A stretch of 64,000 bases of DNA from Thermotoga sp. Ku-13t (GTDB lineage Bacteria > Thermotogota > Thermotogae > Thermotogales > DSM-5069): the NCBI RefSeq assembly GCF_011057685.1, contig NZ_LNFY01000011.1:124001-188000 (forward strand), in the 5' to 3' direction. Below the pieces are notes generated by a model. The model had not been told where the DNA came from. It ran no database searches and saw only the letters and a program-made list of their open reading frames with translations. The stretch's first letter is position 1. Each line of letters opens with the position of its first letter. Positions 28,373 through 39,895 of the stretch are shown here, in pieces. The position numbers and the translations under genes were made by a program.

Positions 28373-28402
28373 TTGACAGATCCTGAGCATTCAAGATACA
28401 AT
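28373..28402 (+). promoter_or_regulatory. promoter of the arginine operon
   Basis: TTGACA (28373-28378) and TACAAT (28397-28402) are 18 bases apart. Transcription would start near 28409 and give a leader of about 220 bases before argG. An isolated ATTCA (28389-28393) resembles one ArgR half-site, but no full ARG box of two spaced half-sites is evident. Confidence 0.88.
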
Positions 28403-28436
28403 CGTGCCAAATCCGAATTTTGCAGGTGAGCCGATC

Positions 28437-28538
28437 GTGAGGATTTTCTTAGAAGTTTTCCTGGTGAAAATGAACAATGCGACGTTTAGCATTCGTAGAC
28501 GTGCTGGGTGCCGCCGGGTGCAGGTGGTGGGCACTTAG
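28437..28538 (+). CDS. arginine leader peptide of the attenuator
   Basis: This is a 33-codon reading frame too short for normal gene finding. It starts with GTG at 28437, 6 bases after AGGTGAG, and ends with TAG at 28536-28538. Its second half (from the internal ATG at 28470) contains three tandem Arg codons CGT-AGA-CGT (28494-28502) and two more, CGC-CGG (28512-28517), giving SIRRRAGCRRVQVVGT at the C terminus. Including AGG as codon 2, Arg makes up six of 33 residues. The peptide ends inside a set of alternative RNA helices directly before the arg structural genes, the arrangement of a classical leader-peptide attenuator. The Arg codons include CGT, CGC and CGG, which are less common in the neighbouring genes than AGA and AGG. 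Confidence 0.8.
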   Translation: MRIFLEVFLVKMNNATFSIRRRAGCRRVQVVGT

Positions 28539-28600
28539 CACGCCATTGTTCTTCCATCATCCCGGCGGCCATATCCAGAAGGATATGGCCGCTTTTTTTT
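28500..28600 (+). promoter_or_regulatory. arginine attenuator: alternative pause, antiterminator and terminator helices
   Basis: Three overlapping structures can be drawn. Helix 1:2 pairs 28500-28512 with 28530-28542 (13 continuous pairs, two G-U). Helix 2:3 pairs 28510-28518 with 28561-28569 (9 perfect pairs) and continues after a bulge with 28524-28531 and 28553-28560 (8 pairs, three G-U). Helix 3:4 is the terminator, 28565-28576 with 28581-28592 (12 perfect pairs, AGAA loop), followed by eight T. Helix 2:3 shares strands with both others, so it excludes them. A ribosome stalled at the tandem Arg codons would mask strand 1 and favour 2:3. One finishing at the TAG would cover strand 2 and allow the terminator. 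Confidence 0.82.
28565..28600 (+). terminator. rho-independent terminator of the arginine leader
   Basis: This is a perfect 12-bp stem, GCGGCCATATCC with its complement, an AGAA loop and a run of eight T. It ends 28 bases before the argG start codon and is the strongest terminator in the window. Its position upstream of, not after, an operon implies conditional termination. Confidence 0.95.
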
Positions 28601-28628: not shown

Positions 28629-29891
28629 GTGCACAGCAAGAAGGTGGTGCTCGCCTACAGCGGAGGTCTGGACACATCGGTAATACTCAAATGGCTCTGT
28701 GAGAAAGGGTTCGAAGTGATCGCCTTCGTGGCGAACGTGGGCCAAAAGGACAATTTCGAGTTCATCAGGAACAAGGCGTTGAAAACCGGCGCCTCTAAGG
28801 TGCACATCGAAGACTTGCGAAGAGAATTCGTGACAGACTTCATCTTCGTCGCGCTCATGGGCAACGCGGTCTACGAGGGTAGATATCTTCTTGGAACATC
28901 CTTGGCCAGGCCACTCATAGCCAAGAAGCAAGTGGAGATCGCAGAAAAAGAGAACGCAGAGTACGTGGCACACGGAGCAACGGGAAAGGGAAACGACCAG
29001 GTCAGGTTCGAACTGACTTACGCTGCTCTCAACCCACACCTGAAGGTGATATCGCCCTGGAAGGATCCTGAGTTTCTGGAGATGTTCAAAGGCAGAACAG
29101 ATCTGATCAACTACGCCAAGCAAAAGGAAATCCCCATCAGAGCCAGCGTAGAAAAACCCTACAGTGAAGACGAAAATCTCATGCACATCTCCCACGAAGC
29201 TGGCAAACTTGAAGATCCGCTGTACGTGGCTGACGAATCCGTCTTCAACAGGACCGTTTCTCCGAAGCAAGCGCCAGACGAAGAGACCCTCATTCAGATC
29301 CACTTTAAAGATGGCATACCCATCAAAGTGGTGAATTTGAACGATGGAACTGTCAAAGAAGATCCACTGGGGCTGTTCGAGTATCTCAACGAGATAGGTT
29401 CCAAAAACGGTGTTGGCCGAGTCGACATGGTGGAGAACAGGTTCATTGGCATAAAGTCCAGAGGAGTTTACGAAACCCCAGGTGCCACGATCCTGTGGAC
29501 CGCACACAGAGACCTTGAAGGAATCGCAATGGATAAAGAAGTCATGCACCTAAGAGACATGCTTTCCGTGAAGTTTTCAGAACTGATCTACAACGGTTTC
29601 TGGTACTCACCAGAGATGGACTTTCTCCTGGCGGCGTTCAAGAAATCTCAAGAAAGAATCGATGGCTATGTGACCGTCTCCATTTACAAAGGGAACGTGA
29701 TGCCTGTGGCACGGTTCTCACCGACCTCCTTATATGACCAAGCGCTCTCCAGCATGGATGTCGAAGGTGGATTCAACGCGCTCGATTCCAGGGGGTTCAT
29801 AAACATTCATTCCATAAGGTTAAAGGCGCACCACATCGTGCTGAAAGAAAAGGATCCGTTTGCATGGAGGAAGGGACTGACACATGCCTAA
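28629..29891 (+). CDS. argG: argininosuccinate synthase
   Basis: ArgG joins citrulline and aspartate with ATP to give argininosuccinate, the penultimate step of arginine synthesis. The 420-residue product has the N-type ATP pyrophosphatase loop AYSGGLDTS, the substrate segment [20 protein letters not shown], and [13 protein letters not shown]. The start is GTG at 28629 with AGGAGGTG 6 bases upstream. It is the first structural gene after the attenuator and overlaps argH by 8 bases. Length is close to family norm. Confidence 0.97.
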
Positions 29892-31086
29892 GTTGTGGGA
29901 AAAAGGTTACAGCCTCGATTCTCTGGTCGAACTGTTCACCGTGGGTAAAGACTTTCTCACCGATATGAGACTGATCAAGTACGACGTGGTCGCTTCGATG
30001 GCACACGCAGAGATGCTCACAAGGGTTGGTTATTTATCCAGAGAAGAATTCGAAGAATTGAAGGTTGCACTCGAAAAGCTTCTGAAGTTGATCGAAACAA
30101 GCCAGTTTTCTATCTCCCCATCGGAAGAAGATTGTCACACCGCGATAGAGAACTTCTTGGTCCGGGAGGTTGGTGACACTGCCAAGAAGATCCACACAGC
30201 TCGCTCGAGGAACGATCAGGTCCTAACGGCACTTCGCCTTCTCTACAAAGACCAGCTAAGAGAGGTCGAACAGTTGATCCAGCAACTGCAAAAGCAACTG
30301 AAACTCTTTTCGTCAAAATTTGGGAAGATAAAGTTCGCAGGTTTCACACACACGAGAAAAGCGATGCCGACGGATTTCAAAACCTGGTCTATGGCCTTCT
30401 ACGATGCTCTGAGCGATGATATCAAGCTGTTGAAGGTCACTTTCGAATTGATCGATCAATGTCCTCTTGGTACAGGTGCTGGTTATGGCATACCGGCGAA
30501 AATAGATAGACGTTTCACGGCGACAAGACTTGGTTTCAGGAAAGTCCAGAAGAATCCCATACACGCACAGTTGAGCAGGGGCAAGTACGAGTTCCTCCTG
30601 TTGCACGTTCTCAGTCAGATCAGTTTCGATCTGAACAGGTTCGCGAGCGACATAATTTTCTTCTCGCTGCCAGAGATCGGTTATTTGGTTTTACCTAAGG
30701 AGTTGTGTACCGGCAGCTCACTCATGCCTCACAAACTCAACCCTGATCCGTTGGAGCTGGTGAGGGCTTACCATAACAGGATCGTGGCGAGGCAAATGGA
30801 GTGCGTCATGATCGTTGACAACCTGATCACAGGTTACCACAGGGACATGCAACTACTGAAAGAGATCGTTCTTGAATCCTTCGACATCGTGCGACAGTTG
30901 TTGCTCGTGATGGGGTTGGTGTTTGGAAAGCTGAAGGTGAACAGGAAGAAGTGCGAAGAAAGCCTGACAGAGGAAGTCCTGTCGACCGAAAGGGTTTACA
31001 GGCTCGTAGGGAAAGGAATTCCATTCAGGGATGCTTACAAGATCGTCGCACAGGAGTTAGGGGTGAGAGAAGATGAAAAAACTTAG
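29884..31086 (+). CDS. argH: argininosuccinate lyase
   Basis: ArgH splits argininosuccinate to arginine and fumarate. The product has 400 residues, shorter than the roughly 460 of many homologues, with the shortening towards the C terminus. Family marks are [23 protein letters not shown] and the mobile loop signature [19 protein letters not shown], where the usual PQKKNP is PHKLNP. The catalytic Ser of the GSS loop is present. It overlaps argG by 8 bases and argC by 14 bases, so translation is coupled. Confidence 0.95.
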
Positions 31087-32101
31087 GGTAGCCATTGTAG
31101 GAGCCACCGGTTACACGGGGTTGGAGCTGTTGAGAATACTGAACAACCATCCCCAAGTAGAGATAGCCCTTCTTTCATCGAAAAGCTTTGCAGGCAAAAG
31201 CCTGAGTGAAGTCTATCCTTTCGAACTCGATCAGACCATCCTGGAAGGCATCGACAGACAAAAGCTGATAGAAAAAAACTGTGATGTTCTGTTCGCAGCC
31301 TTGCCGGCGGGCGCCAGCTACGAACTGGTGAAAAGCTTGGGTAACATGAGAGTCATCGATCTGGGAGCCGATTTCAGATTCGACGATCCCCACCTCTACG
31401 AAAAACACTACGGCAACAGTCTTCCAGACTATGACTCAAGCGAAAGAGTTTACGGGCTCACCGAATTGTACAGGGAACAGATCAGAAAAGCAAGCATCGT
31501 TGCAAATCCTGGCTGTTACCCAACGGCGGTCTTGCTGGGCCTAGCGCCACTAGCAAAAAACGGTCTGTTGCATGCCAACACAGTCTTCGTCGATGCTAAA
31601 TCCGGTGTTTCGGGCGCGGGTAGAAAGCAGGATGAACAGTATTCGTTCTGCGAGCTGAACGAAAATCTCAGACCGTACAACCTCGTGAACCACAGGCACG
31701 TACCGGAGATAGAAGAAAAACTTGAAAAGATGGTTGGAAGAAGGATCAACGTCGTGTTCGTACCACACCTCGTGCCAATGAACAGGGGCATCCTGTGCAC
31801 GATCTACCTTGAGACACATTTGAAGGTTCAAGAAGCGCATGAACTCTACAATGAATTCTACAAAGACGAGCCCTTCGTGCATGTACTTCCCCTAGGTACC
31901 CATCCGGCCACAAGATGGTGCCTGGGCAGTAACCATGTGTTTCTTTCCCTGGCGAAAGATGAGAGAACGAGCACACTGATCGTTGTGTCCACCCTCGACA
32001 ACCTGATGAAGGGTGCTTCCGGTCAAGCCGTTCAGAACATGAACGTGATGTTTTCAATCGAAGAAGAAACCGCCTTGTACTTGAAACCAATCTATCCGTG
32101 A
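31073..32101 (+). CDS. argC: N-acetyl-gamma-glutamyl-phosphate reductase
   Basis: ArgC reduces N-acetylglutamyl phosphate to the semialdehyde with NADPH. The 342-residue product begins with the Rossmann motif AIVGATGYTGLELLRIL and contains the active-site Cys in VANPGCYPTAVLLGL, plus HRHVPEI and the later PHLVPMNRGIL. The ATG at 31073 lies inside the end of argH and is followed by a clear Rossmann start. No anomalies were seen. Confidence 0.97.
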   Translation: MKKLRVAIVGATGYTGLELLRILNNHPQVEIALLSSKSFAGKSLSEVYPFELDQTILEGIDRQKLIEKNCDVLFAALPAGASYELVKSLGNMRVIDLGADFRFDDPHLYEKHYGNSLPDYDSSERVYGLTELYREQIRKASIVANPGCYPTAVLLGLAPLAKNGLLHANTVFVDAKSGVSGAGRKQDEQYSFCELNENLRPYNLVNHRHVPEIEEKLEKMVGRRINVVFVPHLVPMNRGILCTIYLETHLKVQEAHELYNEFYKDEPFVHVLPLGTHPATRWCLGSNHVFLSLAKDERTSTLIVVSTLDNLMKGASGQAVQNMNVMFSIEEETALYLKPIYP

Positions 32102-32113
32102 GAAGGTGATGGC

Positions 32114-33323
32114 ATGGACGTGCCCAAAGGTTTTTTGTTCTCCGGCATTCACTCCGGTGTGAAGAGATACAGAAAGGATCTTGGAATCACTTATTCGATC
32201 TCCAATTGTGTTGCAGCTGGTCTTTTCACGACGAACATGGTCAGAGCCGCTCCAATCCTCTACAACATGAGACTGCTTGAAGAGAACTGTACAGCGATCA
32301 GGGCAATCGTGGCAAACAGCAAGATCGCTAACAGTTGCACAGGTCAGCAAGGTTTGGAGAACGCTTATCGTACCGCACAAAAGGCCGCCGAAGTCTTGCA
32401 GATAGATCCAAAATCCATCTTGCTTGCCTCCACAGGCATCATAGGCGTTCAGTTACCGATGGACAAGATCGAGGCTGGCCTGGAAGTCGCCTCAAGATTC
32501 TTAGGTGAAGATCCTTTACCCTTCGCGGAAGCGATCATGACGACCGACACGTACGTCAAACTGGCCTCAACGACTGCGCAGATCGGGGGAAAAAAAGTGA
32601 ACATCCTTGGGATCGCCAAAGGCTCAGGCATGGTGCACCCAAACATGGCCACAATACTGGTATTTATCTTAACCGACGCACGCATCACGCCAAAAGCACT
32701 GAGGAAGGCACTCAAAGATTCTGTTGATAGAACTTACAACATGATCGACGTGGATGGTGATACGAGCACCAACGACATAGTCCTCGCGCTGGCCAACGGT
32801 GAAGCTGAGAACGACACGATCACGGAAGAAGGTCCAGACTTTTTCAATTTCTCCAAAAGTTTGCATCTCATCAACGTGGAACTCGCAAAAATGATCGTCA
32901 AGGACGGAGAAGGAGCGACAAAGCTCTTGGAAGTAAGGGTGATCAACGCATCGGACGAGATGTCAGCAAGGAGGATCGCAAGATCCATCGTCTCATCAAA
33001 CCTGGTCAAGACGGCAATCCATGCAGGTGATCCGAACTGGGGAAGGATTGTGGCAGCCGCAGGTTATTCGGGAGCAAGCTTTGATCCAAACAGGATGAAT
33101 CTGTACATCGGTGACGGAAAGAACACGATTTTGGTTCTGGAGCATGGGAACCCATGCGATTTCGACGAAGAAGCTGTCTGCAAAGGTTCTTTCTGCGAAC
33201 GAGATTGTCGCGACCATCGACCTGAACGAAGGTGTTCACAGCGCAACGGCCTGGGGGTGCGATCTGAGCGAAGAATACATCAGGAAGAACGGGAGGTACA
33301 GGGTATGGACGAAAAAATTTTGA
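32114..33323 (+). pseudogene. argJ: glutamate N-acetyltransferase ArgJ with a frameshift near its 3' end
   Basis: ArgJ transfers the acetyl group from N-acetylornithine to glutamate and cleaves itself. The self-cleavage motif KGSGMVHPNMAT is intact, with Thr180 as nucleophile. At about 33161-33175 the frame breaks. The N-terminal frame runs to CDFDE, but the conserved end (LSAKVLSANEIVATIDLNEG, then SATAWGCDLSEEYIRKNGRYR) is in the +1 frame and stops at 33321-33323. One extra base in GACGAAGAAGCTG explains it. Because the original frame stays open and argB is in the same frame, an uncorrected read gives a 676-residue ArgJ-ArgB fusion with a scrambled junction of about 45 residues. Real mutation, programmed shift and sequencing error are all possible. 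Confidence 0.88.
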
Positions 33324-34144
33324 ACATGTTGATGAAGACGATCGATGTCTCAGCTCGTCTCTCCGGCAAGGTACTGGTTGTCAAGGTCGGGGGAAACGTC
33401 CTCAGCAACGATGTCTCAAAAAGCGCTTTCGTAAAAGACATCGCTTTTCTCACCCAGCTGGGGATTAGACCACTGATCGTGCACGGCGGAGGACCCGAGA
33501 TCACTGCGATGATGGAAAAACTCGGTATGAAACCGATCTTCAAACAAGGCTACAGGGTAACGGACGAAGAGACGTTGAAGATCGTCGAGATGGTGCTCAA
33601 CAAAACGAACAAAGACCTCGTCTCTGCTCTGAACATCGCCGGGGTCATGGCAGTGGGCCTCTGCGGCAAAGATGCCAATTTCATGATCGCCGAAAAGGAT
33701 ACCACGTACGGGGACATAGGTTACGTGGGAAAAGTGAAAAGAGTGAACGATAAGATAATCCAGCTGCTTTTCGAATCAGATTACGTTCCTGTAATCGCAC
33801 CGATCGGCGTCGGAGAGGACGGAACAGCTTACAACTTGAACGCCGATGTGGCAGCAGCACAGGTGGCCATCGCTCTGAGCGCAGAGATGGTCATTTTCAT
33901 GACTGACATCGAAGGAGTGGTGAAAGACGGACATGTGATTCCTCAACTCAACGTTGATGAAGCCTTGAAGTTGATTAAAGATGGGACCGTCAAATCTGGC
34001 ATGGTACCAAAACTTCAATACGCGATAGAAGCAGTGAAAGGATGCGTCAAGAGTGCCCACATAATAAACGGTAAAGATCCGCACTCTTTGCTGATCAAGC
34101 TGTTCGTTTCCGAAAGAATCGGTACGACCATAACAAGAGATTGA
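33305..34144 (+). CDS. argB: acetylglutamate kinase
   Basis: ArgB phosphorylates N-acetylglutamate. The 279-residue amino acid kinase fold shows KVLVVKVGGNVL near the N terminus, IVHGGGPEITAMMEKLG, FKQGYRVTDEETLKIVEMVL and the C-terminal MVPKLQYAIEAVKGCVKSAHII. The extra N-terminal helix before the kinase core is typical of arginine-inhibited hexameric ArgB, which would add feedback at this step. ATG 33305 has GGGAGGTACAGG upstream and lies 19 bases before the end of the corrected argJ frame. Confidence 0.97.
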   Translation: MDEKILNMLMKTIDVSARLSGKVLVVKVGGNVLSNDVSKSAFVKDIAFLTQLGIRPLIVHGGGPEITAMMEKLGMKPIFKQGYRVTDEETLKIVEMVLNKTNKDLVSALNIAGVMAVGLCGKDANFMIAEKDTTYGDIGYVGKVKRVNDKIIQLLFESDYVPVIAPIGVGEDGTAYNLNADVAAAQVAIALSAEMVIFMTDIEGVVKDGHVIPQLNVDEALKLIKDGTVKSGMVPKLQYAIEAVKGCVKSAHIINGKDPHSLLIKLFVSERIGTTITRD

Positions 34145-36513
<2,369 letters not shown>

Positions 36514-36517
36514 GAAA

Positions 36518-39500
36518 ATGCCGAAGAGGCAGGACATAAAAAAGATTCTCCTCATCGGTTCAGGCCCGATAACGATCGGTCAAGCGGCGGAGTTCGATTA
36601 CTCTGGCACACAAGCTCTGAAAGCTCTCAAATCACTTGGTTACCACGTGATCGTTGTCAATTCGAACTCAGCAACGATAATGACTGATCCAGAGTTCTCA
36701 GACGCTGTGTACATAGAACCGCTCGAGCCTGACTACTTAGAAAAGATAATCGAGCGTGAAAGACCCGATGCCATCCTGTGCACGATGGGGGGCCAAACGG
36801 CTCTAAACCTAGCGGTTGAACTGCACAACAGAGGAATACTCGAAAAGTACAACGTTCAACTCATTGGAGCGAAGCTGGATACCATAAAAAAGGCTGAAGA
36901 CCGAGAGCTGTTCAAAAAAGCCATGAAGGAAGCAGGTTTGGAGGTCTTGAGGAGTGAGACAGTTTCGAGTCCGATCGACGCCCTGAGGGTCGCGCACGAG
37001 ATCGGCTATCCTGTAGTCGTAAGACCCAGTTTCACGCTCGGCGGCAGTGGAGGAGGCATCGCTTACAACGACGAAGAACTCGTTTCAATTGTGTCGAGAG
37101 GATTGATCGAAAGCCCAGAAAGGTCCGTACTCATCGAAGAATCCGTTGTGGGATGGAAAGAGTATGAACTCGAAGTGATGAGAGACTGCGCCAAGAATTT
37201 CGTGGTCGTATGTTCGATTGAAAACTTCGATCCGATGGGTGTGCACACAGGGGATTCCATCACTGTGGCACCCGCGCAAACTCTGACAGACAGAGAGTAC
37301 CAAGCGATGAGAAACGCGGCGATGAAAGCTATGGATGCCATCGGAATGGAAACCGGAGGATGCAACATACAGTTCGCCGTCAATCCACAAGACGGTCGAA
37401 TGGTCGTCATCGAGATAAATCCTCGGGTTTCCAGATCATCCGCACTCGCATCGAAAGCGACAGGTTATCCCATAGCCAAGGTTGCGGCGATGCTGGCGGT
37501 TGGTCTCAGACTGGATGAAATAGCGAATTTCATCACCCAAAAAACTTCCGCCGCCTTCGAACCGTCGATCGACTACGTTGTGGTGAAGATACCGAGGTTC
37601 CAGATGGAGAAATTTCCCGGTTCTGATCCGAGATTGGGGGCGCAGATGAAGTCCGTCGGGGAGATAATGGCGATTGGTCGAACCTTCAAAGAAGCTTTGG
37701 GAAAAGCCCTTAGGTCACTTGAGCTGGACAAAACTCCCAAGCTCGATTTAAACCACATCAAAGAATACCTCGCCAACCCAACACCGGAAAGAATTTCCTA
37801 CATAAACGCCGCCTTCAGGCAAGATTTTTCCGTTGAAGAAGTTCACAGATTGACCAAGATAGACACATGGTTTCTCCAAGAGATCAAGGAGATCATGGAC
37901 TTAGAGAAGCAGCTCAAACAGATCGGCCCGAACGATCCGAATATCTTGAGGAAGGCAAAGGAATGGGGTTTTTCAGACAGGGAACTTGCTGAGATATTTG
38001 AGATTCCAGAAAAGGAGGTCCGAAGTATCAGAAAATCTTATGGAATAAGACCTGTCTTCAAAATGGTGGACACGTGCGCCGCAGAATTCGAAGCTGCCAC
38101 ACCGTACTTCTATTCGACCTACAACGGTATCGAGAACGAAGCGCTTCCATCCGAGAGAAGAAAGATCGCGGTGCTTGGCTCTGGGCCAAACAGGATTGGT
38201 CAAGGCATAGAATTCGACTATGCGAACGTTCACGCCGTCTGGGCATTTCAAGAGGAAGGCTATGAAGCCATCATGATCAACTCCAACCCCGAAACTGTTT
38301 CTACGGACTACGACACTTCGGACAGGCTGTACTTTGAGCCTCTCACTGTTGAGGACGTAGTGGAGGTGGCTCAGAACGAGAAAGCAGAAACTGTGGTGGT
38401 CTCTTTTGGAGGTCAAACACCTCTGAAACTCGCAAAAGAATTGGCAGACGAGGGTTTGAGAATACTCGGCACAGATTTCCAGCAAATCGATCTTGCAGAA
38501 GACAGGGCAAGGTTCGCAATGTTCTTGAAAGATCTCGGCCTGAAGATGCCAGATTTCAGGATCGTGACGAGCATCGAAGATGCCCTGAAGGCGGTCGATG
38601 AACTGGGATTTCCCGTGCTCGTCCGGCCCAGTTACGTGCTGGGTGGTAGGGCGATGACGATCGTGGATTCGAAGAAGGAGTTGATCGAGTATGTTTCGCA
38701 AGCGGCTCTAATTTCACAGGGTCATCCACTCGTCCTCGATAAATTCCTGGAGGACGCCATTGAAATGGACGTCGACGTCGTGAGCGACGGTGAAACTGTG
38801 TGGATTGCAGGGTTGATGGAGCAAATCGAAGAGGCTGGCATACATTCAGGTGACTCTGCGTGTGTTTTGCCTCCCACGAGTCTTTCCGACGAACTGATAG
38901 ACCGTATCGAGAGTCTCGTTTTTGAGCTGGTCAGTGGCATGAAGATCGTCGGGCCAGCCAACGTCCAGCTCGCCATCAAAAACGAAGAGATCTACGTGAT
39001 CGAACTGAATCCCAGAGTTTCGAGAACGTTTCCATTCGTGAGCAAGGCGATCGGAATACCGGTGGCCAAGATCGCCGCGAAGGTGCTCGTGGGAAAGAAA
39101 CTCGTCGAGCTTCTAAAACCTTACTTTCCATACAAAACGAGGAAGAAAGTTTCGGAGAACCTGGAAGATTTCCGTGGAAAACTGCTGCCAACACCGTGGC
39201 CTGCGTACCATTCCGTGAAAGAGGTTGTCATACCGTTCCACAAGTTTTCAAACGTGGACGCTCTGCTCGGACCGGAGATGAAATCCACTGGCGAAGTGAT
39301 GGGGATCGGTCGGACTTTCGCCGAGGCGTTTGCTAAGGCTCAAATAGCTGCCAATGGCTCGTTTCCAAAAAAAGCAATCCTCGTAACTGTCAGGGACCAG
39401 GACAAACGAGAGATCGTTCCACTCGTATCCTACCTCTACGATTTGGGATTCGAAATCTACGCCACCAACGGTACGGCAAGAATCCTGAACGCTGTGGGCG

Positions 39501-39895
39501 TTCCCGCCACGGCTGTGCCAAAGTTTGGTGAGACCAGACCGGACGTCGTGGATTTGATAGAACAACATAAAGTTGATCTGGTGATCATCACTCAATCGCC
39601 TGAACACAGGGAAGATACCCAGCTCGATCCAGAAGCCAAAGCGCCGTTGAGGTTCGAGAGTCGAAGAAGCGTTGGATACAAAATCAGAAACGCCGCAATC
39701 AAGAATAGAATACCCTACATAACGACAGTTGAAGCTTTCAGAGCTATGGTGTCCGCTATCAGAGAATCGAGGTTGAAAGATTTCTCAGTCCGAAGCCTTA
39801 AAGAGTGGCACAGATCGAATTTTCCCACAATGAGTTCTTCGTCACACGCTGATCGGGCGCCTATTGAAAGTGTGGCTGGAGGGCTTCACGGTTGA
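36518..39895 (+). CDS. carB: carbamoyl-phosphate synthase large subunit
   Basis: CarB makes carbamoyl phosphate from bicarbonate, ammonia and two ATP. The 1125-residue product shows the two homologous ATP-grasp halves: [20 protein letters not shown] opens the first, and [19 protein letters not shown] opens the second at about 548. Each half has an EINPR or ELNPR motif. The C-terminal MGS-like allosteric domain ([20 protein letters not shown]) is present. The last 30 or so residues (after SLKEWHRSN) are a hydrophilic tail of no recognised function. It is the last gene of argGHCJBD-carAB; no strong terminator follows. Confidence 0.97.

Follow-up and report, generated by a model that had tools for sequence, protein, structure and literature searches.

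A probable arginine-sensing leader attenuator upstream of the arginine biosynthesis genes in Thermotogota

The analysed window, a 64,000-nucleotide stretch of the Thermotoga sp. Ku-13t genome (assembly GCF_011057685.1, contig NZ_LNFY01000011.1, positions 124,001 to 188,000, forward strand), carries an arginine biosynthesis cluster, argGHCJBD-carAB, assigned by NCBIfam profiles and preceded by a leader region with a promoter, a short reading frame rich in Arg codons, and three alternative helices ending in a strong terminator (Table 1). In argJ there is an apparent frameshift, where the profile match stops about 45 residues before the end and the remainder lies in another frame, and argJ reads through into argB. 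Only one full-length carB was found in the genome, and carAB overlaps argD. The two ornithine/aspartate transcarbamoylase-type genes are located on other contigs, and the one read by inspection as argF starts close behind another ORF without such a leader.

Table 1. Coordinates of the leader elements and downstream genes in the window, and of a second leader in the same genome.
Feature	Position	Strand	Details
Sigma-70-type promoter	28373..28402	+	TTGACA (28373-28378), 18 nt, TACAAT (28397-28402); 11 of 12 consensus matches
Shine-Dalgarno of the leader peptide	28424..28429	+	AGGTGA
Leader peptide	28437..28538	+	33 codons, MRIFLEVFLVKMNNATFSIRRRAGCRRVQVVGT; GTG start at 28437, TAG stop at 28536-28538; AGG as codon 2
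Tandem Arg codons, proposed sensor	28494..28502	+	CGT-AGA-CGT
Further Arg codons	28512..28517	+	CGC-CGG, inside the antiterminator 5' strand
Helix 1:2	28500..28542	+	28500-28512 with 28530-28542; 13 pairs, two G-U
Antiterminator 2:3, 5' strand	28510..28518	+	GCCGCCGGG; 9 pairs with 28561-28569
Antiterminator 2:3, 3' strand	28561..28569	+	CCCGGCGGC; overlaps the base of the terminator
Antiterminator 2:3, possible second part	28524-28531 with 28553-28560	+	3 of 8 pairs G-U
Intrinsic terminator 3:4	28565..28600	+	GCGGCCATATCC-AGAA-GGATATGGCCGC plus 8 T; 28565-28576 with 28581-28592, 12 pairs, loop AGAA
argG, argininosuccinate synthase	28629..29891	+	
argH	29884..31086	+	
argC	31073..32101	+	
argJ and argB, read as one frame	32114..34144	+	apparent frameshift in argJ near 33180 (33165-33200)
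argD	34160..35347	+	
carA	35344..36513	+	
carB	36518..39895	+	
Leader before hisZ	546887-546936 of contig C1		leader MHMGLVERFFNSVLNLVHHHVFDPVASPPGVA, sensor region LVHHHVF

All elements named in a preliminary description, which proposed an arginine leader-peptide attenuator at this locus, were confirmed, however, the leader frame contains six Arg codons rather than the five listed there. The second part of the antiterminator that was also proposed can form, but its exact pairing is not conserved, since in the nearest relative a further antiterminator segment forms in another register. Scans for promoter-like and terminator-like sequences taken alone gave no more hits than in shuffled sequence, which would be compatible with an ordinary terminator and a chance ORF without any regulation. 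In contrast, a run of three Arg residues is expected only 0.004 times in a 33-codon ORF at the local Arg frequency, and the comparative data presented below, covering about 50 loci, contradict a chance arrangement, which we consider extremely unlikely.

To examine conservation, the ArgG protein was searched in 61 genomes and the upstream regions were inspected. All seven genomes of the window's family whose argG upstream region is available, plus one genome from another family (G047) and one from family f11 (G069), carry the leader. In the latter two, ArgG is 83% identical to that of the window, suggesting horizontal transfer of the operon together with its leader. The nine leaders are 28–34 codons long, each with an SD-like sequence before the start. 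Their N-terminal parts diverge completely, while an Arg cluster is retained 11–14 codons before the stop with different synonymous codons (CGT-AGA-CGT, CGG-AGA-CGG, AGG-CGG, AGG-CGA, AGA-CGG and CGG-AAG-CGG). The antiterminator is 91.7% paired with six pairs changed on both sides, and none of 500 shuffles reached the observed percentage paired, number of such pairs or covariation score. In each of the nine sequences the 5' strand pairs with the pre-terminator better than shuffled versions (p 0 to 0.038). Helix 1:2 receives less support: covariation is moderate, with 10–131 of 500 shuffles reaching the observed values depending on the measure, the mapped pairs fail in several relatives, and the hairpin in G069 is no better than shuffles.

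The terminator stem is invariant among the nine argG leaders, and its palindrome, GGCCATATC..GATATGGCC, occurs once per genome, always before argG, in 9 of 103 Thermotogota genomes. A pattern scan of all GTDB genomes for the exact palindrome followed by a T run returned mostly chance terminators in unrelated taxa, with only three loci encoding argG next to it. This invariance, and the control of arginine genes that ArgR is likely to exert in many bacteria, would allow the reading that the palindrome is an operator for ArgR or a replacement transcription factor and that the leader frame is incidental.

ALTERNATIVES. ArgR domains (PF01316 and PF02863) were not detected in the window genome, whereas the same searches find T. 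maritima ArgR among the controls. ArgR occurs in 8 of 103 Thermotogota genomes, all in family f2, and none of these carries an Arg attenuator; however, as ArgR is confined to a single clade, this lack of overlap is not independent evidence that the two exclude each other. Furthermore, six genomes have argG but neither ArgR nor this leader directly upstream. Across the wider family of leaders described below, the terminator stem varies with compensatory changes (33 cells with both sides changed, 0/500 shuffles), is followed by a T run, and sits behind leaders of other specificities, whereas a DNA operator would not require codons matching the gene. The alignment underlying this result was fitted to the model structure, which favors pairing. 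The invariance in the argG set reflects its narrower depth or constraint rather than a fixed operator, and a DNA-binding regulator acting at the palindrome appears unlikely. No Rfam family, including T-boxes and described riboswitches, matches the window at gathering threshold, and no credible match was obtained in eleven related loci at E up to 0.1.

A covariance model of the nine leaders was searched in 390 genomes and found additional members in the phylum, and a model of the terminator core extended this over 103 Thermotogota genomes, but gave no match at E up to 0.0005 in about 287 genomes outside the phylum. Four model hits, one of them at rpoB, were rejected as chance. In total, about 50 leaders share the scaffold, with a CCGGUGG-type antiterminator strand and a GGCC(A/U)YAUC-type terminator, and similar promoters are seen by inspection upstream of other leaders. 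The locus in the window, the one case covered by the preliminary description, belongs to a phylum-wide set.

Interestingly, the sensor codons vary with the downstream gene, as identified by NCBIfam and Pfam for representatives. IRRR-type leaders precede argG, and NDRRR or NNRRR precedes argJ in family f9. A second member in the window's own genome precedes hisZ, with LVHHHVF in this genome and its genus and IHHHNRF in G047; two near-complete genomes of the window's genus without an argG match, which are probably unable to make arginine, nevertheless keep the hisZ attenuator. In family f5, dapF is preceded by NKKYVK and aspartokinase by NKKQVKY. Leaders before Lys/Arg/Orn-type substrate-binding proteins mix Lys, Arg and His codons (NKKHHVKY, NRKHHVKY or LRHHSR), as if one leader sensed several transported amino acids, and amino-acid permeases are found with NRKHDKY or NRKHIKY and oligopeptide-transport genes with ERRHHR or NRR. 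The scaffold also occurs before a Xaa-Pro-dipeptidase-like amidohydrolase, with a hydrophobic sensor region (VVLIL), and in similar form before a citrate synthase with NNQPEPK, which may report Gln, Glu or Pro; these last two are suggestive only, the latter weakly so. For the 28 biosynthetic-gene leaders, the eight-codon sensor holds 83 cognate residues against a shuffled mean of 41, with 0 of 100,000 label shuffles reaching 83. These sequences are related, and the number therefore overstates independence, but five gene classes agree. The first sensor codon lies 14–25 nt before the antiterminator strand in every class, which is about the reach of a stalled ribosome. Antiterminator duplexes are, however, weak for the argJ class (p 0.02–0.14) and not significant for three loci (L150, L161 and L166).

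The swapped specificities also bear on two other readings of the leader. The C-terminal residues of the argG leader peptides (R-W-V-x-x-G-T/A) look conserved, which might indicate that the peptide itself arrests the ribosome in response to free arginine, like TnaC or the fungal arginine attenuator peptide. These residues are, however, encoded by the helix strands and explained by RNA pairing, the N-terminal parts diverge, and the same scaffold carries His, Lys or mixed codons elsewhere, as expected for codon sensing, which makes an arrest peptide improbable. Alternatively, the leader could sense general translation speed, since CGT, CGC and CGG are 3–5% each of local Arg codons while AGA and AGG make up 78%; CGT, the rarest at 3%, accounts for two of the three tandem codons. 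This we also regard as unlikely, because other members use Lys or His codons that agree with the downstream gene and the argJ class uses AGG-AGG-CGC, and rare codons may in any case serve to sharpen an amino-acid sensor.

Taken together, the region is most likely a ribosome-mediated transcription attenuator that senses charged Arg-tRNA and works like the his and trp attenuators, a mechanism that is inferred from anatomy, conservation, covariation, codon-gene agreement and the absence of detectable ArgR rather than from expression, termination or ribosome data. In this model, a ribosome supplied with enough arginine runs through the Arg codons to the stop, the antiterminator strand is covered or tied up in helix 1:2, the terminator forms and transcription ends near 28600. 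When Arg-tRNA is short, the ribosome would stall at CGT-AGA-CGT, about 17 nt before the antiterminator strand, leaving this GCCGG-type strand free to capture the GGC base of the left arm of the terminator, so that only a weak A-T-rich top hairpin is left and RNA polymerase reads on into argGHCJBD-carAB. Equilibrium folding with masked ribosome footprints does not reveal such a switch: the full terminator forms at 0.97 probability or more at 37 °C in every ribosome state for the window leader, because 2:3 overlaps only its base. The same calculation on the E. coli trp leader, the sequence of which was confirmed in E. coli genomes, gives 0.96–0.98 in all states, and the test thus does not discriminate. 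If arm 4 is released only to its sixth base, as while its base is still inside RNA polymerase, capture at 75 °C for the window leader is 0.76 with a ribosome at the first Arg codon and 0.06 with a ribosome at the stop, and every tested leader shows the same direction. The 12-nt ribosome edge and the six-base release are assumptions, and with no ribosome the antiterminator is often captured as well.

The shared scaffold raises the possibility that one ancestral attenuator RNA spread through the Thermotogota by duplication and horizontal transfer and was re-specialized by swapping only the sensor codons, giving homologous arginine, histidine, lysine and multi-amino-acid (Lys/Arg/His) sensors, two of them in the window's genome. 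We consider this only slightly more likely than not. Attenuators are often thought to arise independently, whereas here one scaffold seems to have been re-tuned, which offers a natural codon-swap experiment. The data further suggest that lineages without detectable ArgR control arginine synthesis by reading Arg-tRNA charging, place the only carbamoyl-phosphate synthase found in the genome, needed for pyrimidines too, behind a probable arginine switch, and provide a search model for annotating short leaders.

Ribosome-mediated attenuation as such is classical. The arginine version for a biosynthetic operon, the phylum, which comprises mostly thermophiles, and above all the sharing of one scaffold among several specificities appear to be new; no report for Thermotogota was found in the open-access literature searched, although priority is not certain because subscription literature, including a 2010 comparative survey of attenuation (Lopatovskaya et al. 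2010, cited in PMC4833913), was not covered. The his, trp, leu, thr, phe and ilv attenuators of Proteobacteria have a short translated leader with cognate codons, helices 1:2, 2:3 and 3:4, and an intrinsic terminator before a biosynthetic operon, which is also the layout inferred for the present locus; in the present case the amino acid is arginine, the phylum is Thermotogota, the antiterminator takes only the 4–5 bp base of the terminator, and antiterminator and terminator sequences are shared between attenuators of different amino acids. Naville and Gautheret (PMC2965389) stated in 2010 that no leader-peptide system was known to them outside Proteobacteria and Actinobacteria, and added leader-peptide attenuation with His codons at hisS/hisZ of bacilli, which concerns Firmicutes and histidine only. 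In Salmonella, speF is preceded by orf34 (PMC6386406), a 34-codon leader with tandem Arg codons, where ribosome pausing at low arginine changes downstream RNA structure and an Arg-to-Lys change abolishes the response; however, this gammaproteobacterial system works through Rho, RBS sequestration and RNase G, with no intrinsic terminator found in the leader, and controls ornithine decarboxylase rather than arginine biosynthesis. A leader peptide with possible attenuation has been reported upstream of carAB in Pseudomonas aeruginosa, from an unrelated phylum (carA leader, cited in PMC4997734), but attenuation there is ascribed to pyrimidines, and arginine acts separately at the transcriptional level. 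Finally, the uORFC-8-2 cysS attenuator of Rhodobacterales (PMC8632094) is a ribosome-mediated attenuator with cognate codons that was also found by comparative genomics, but it concerns cysteine, one gene and one order, with no scaffold shared between specificities.
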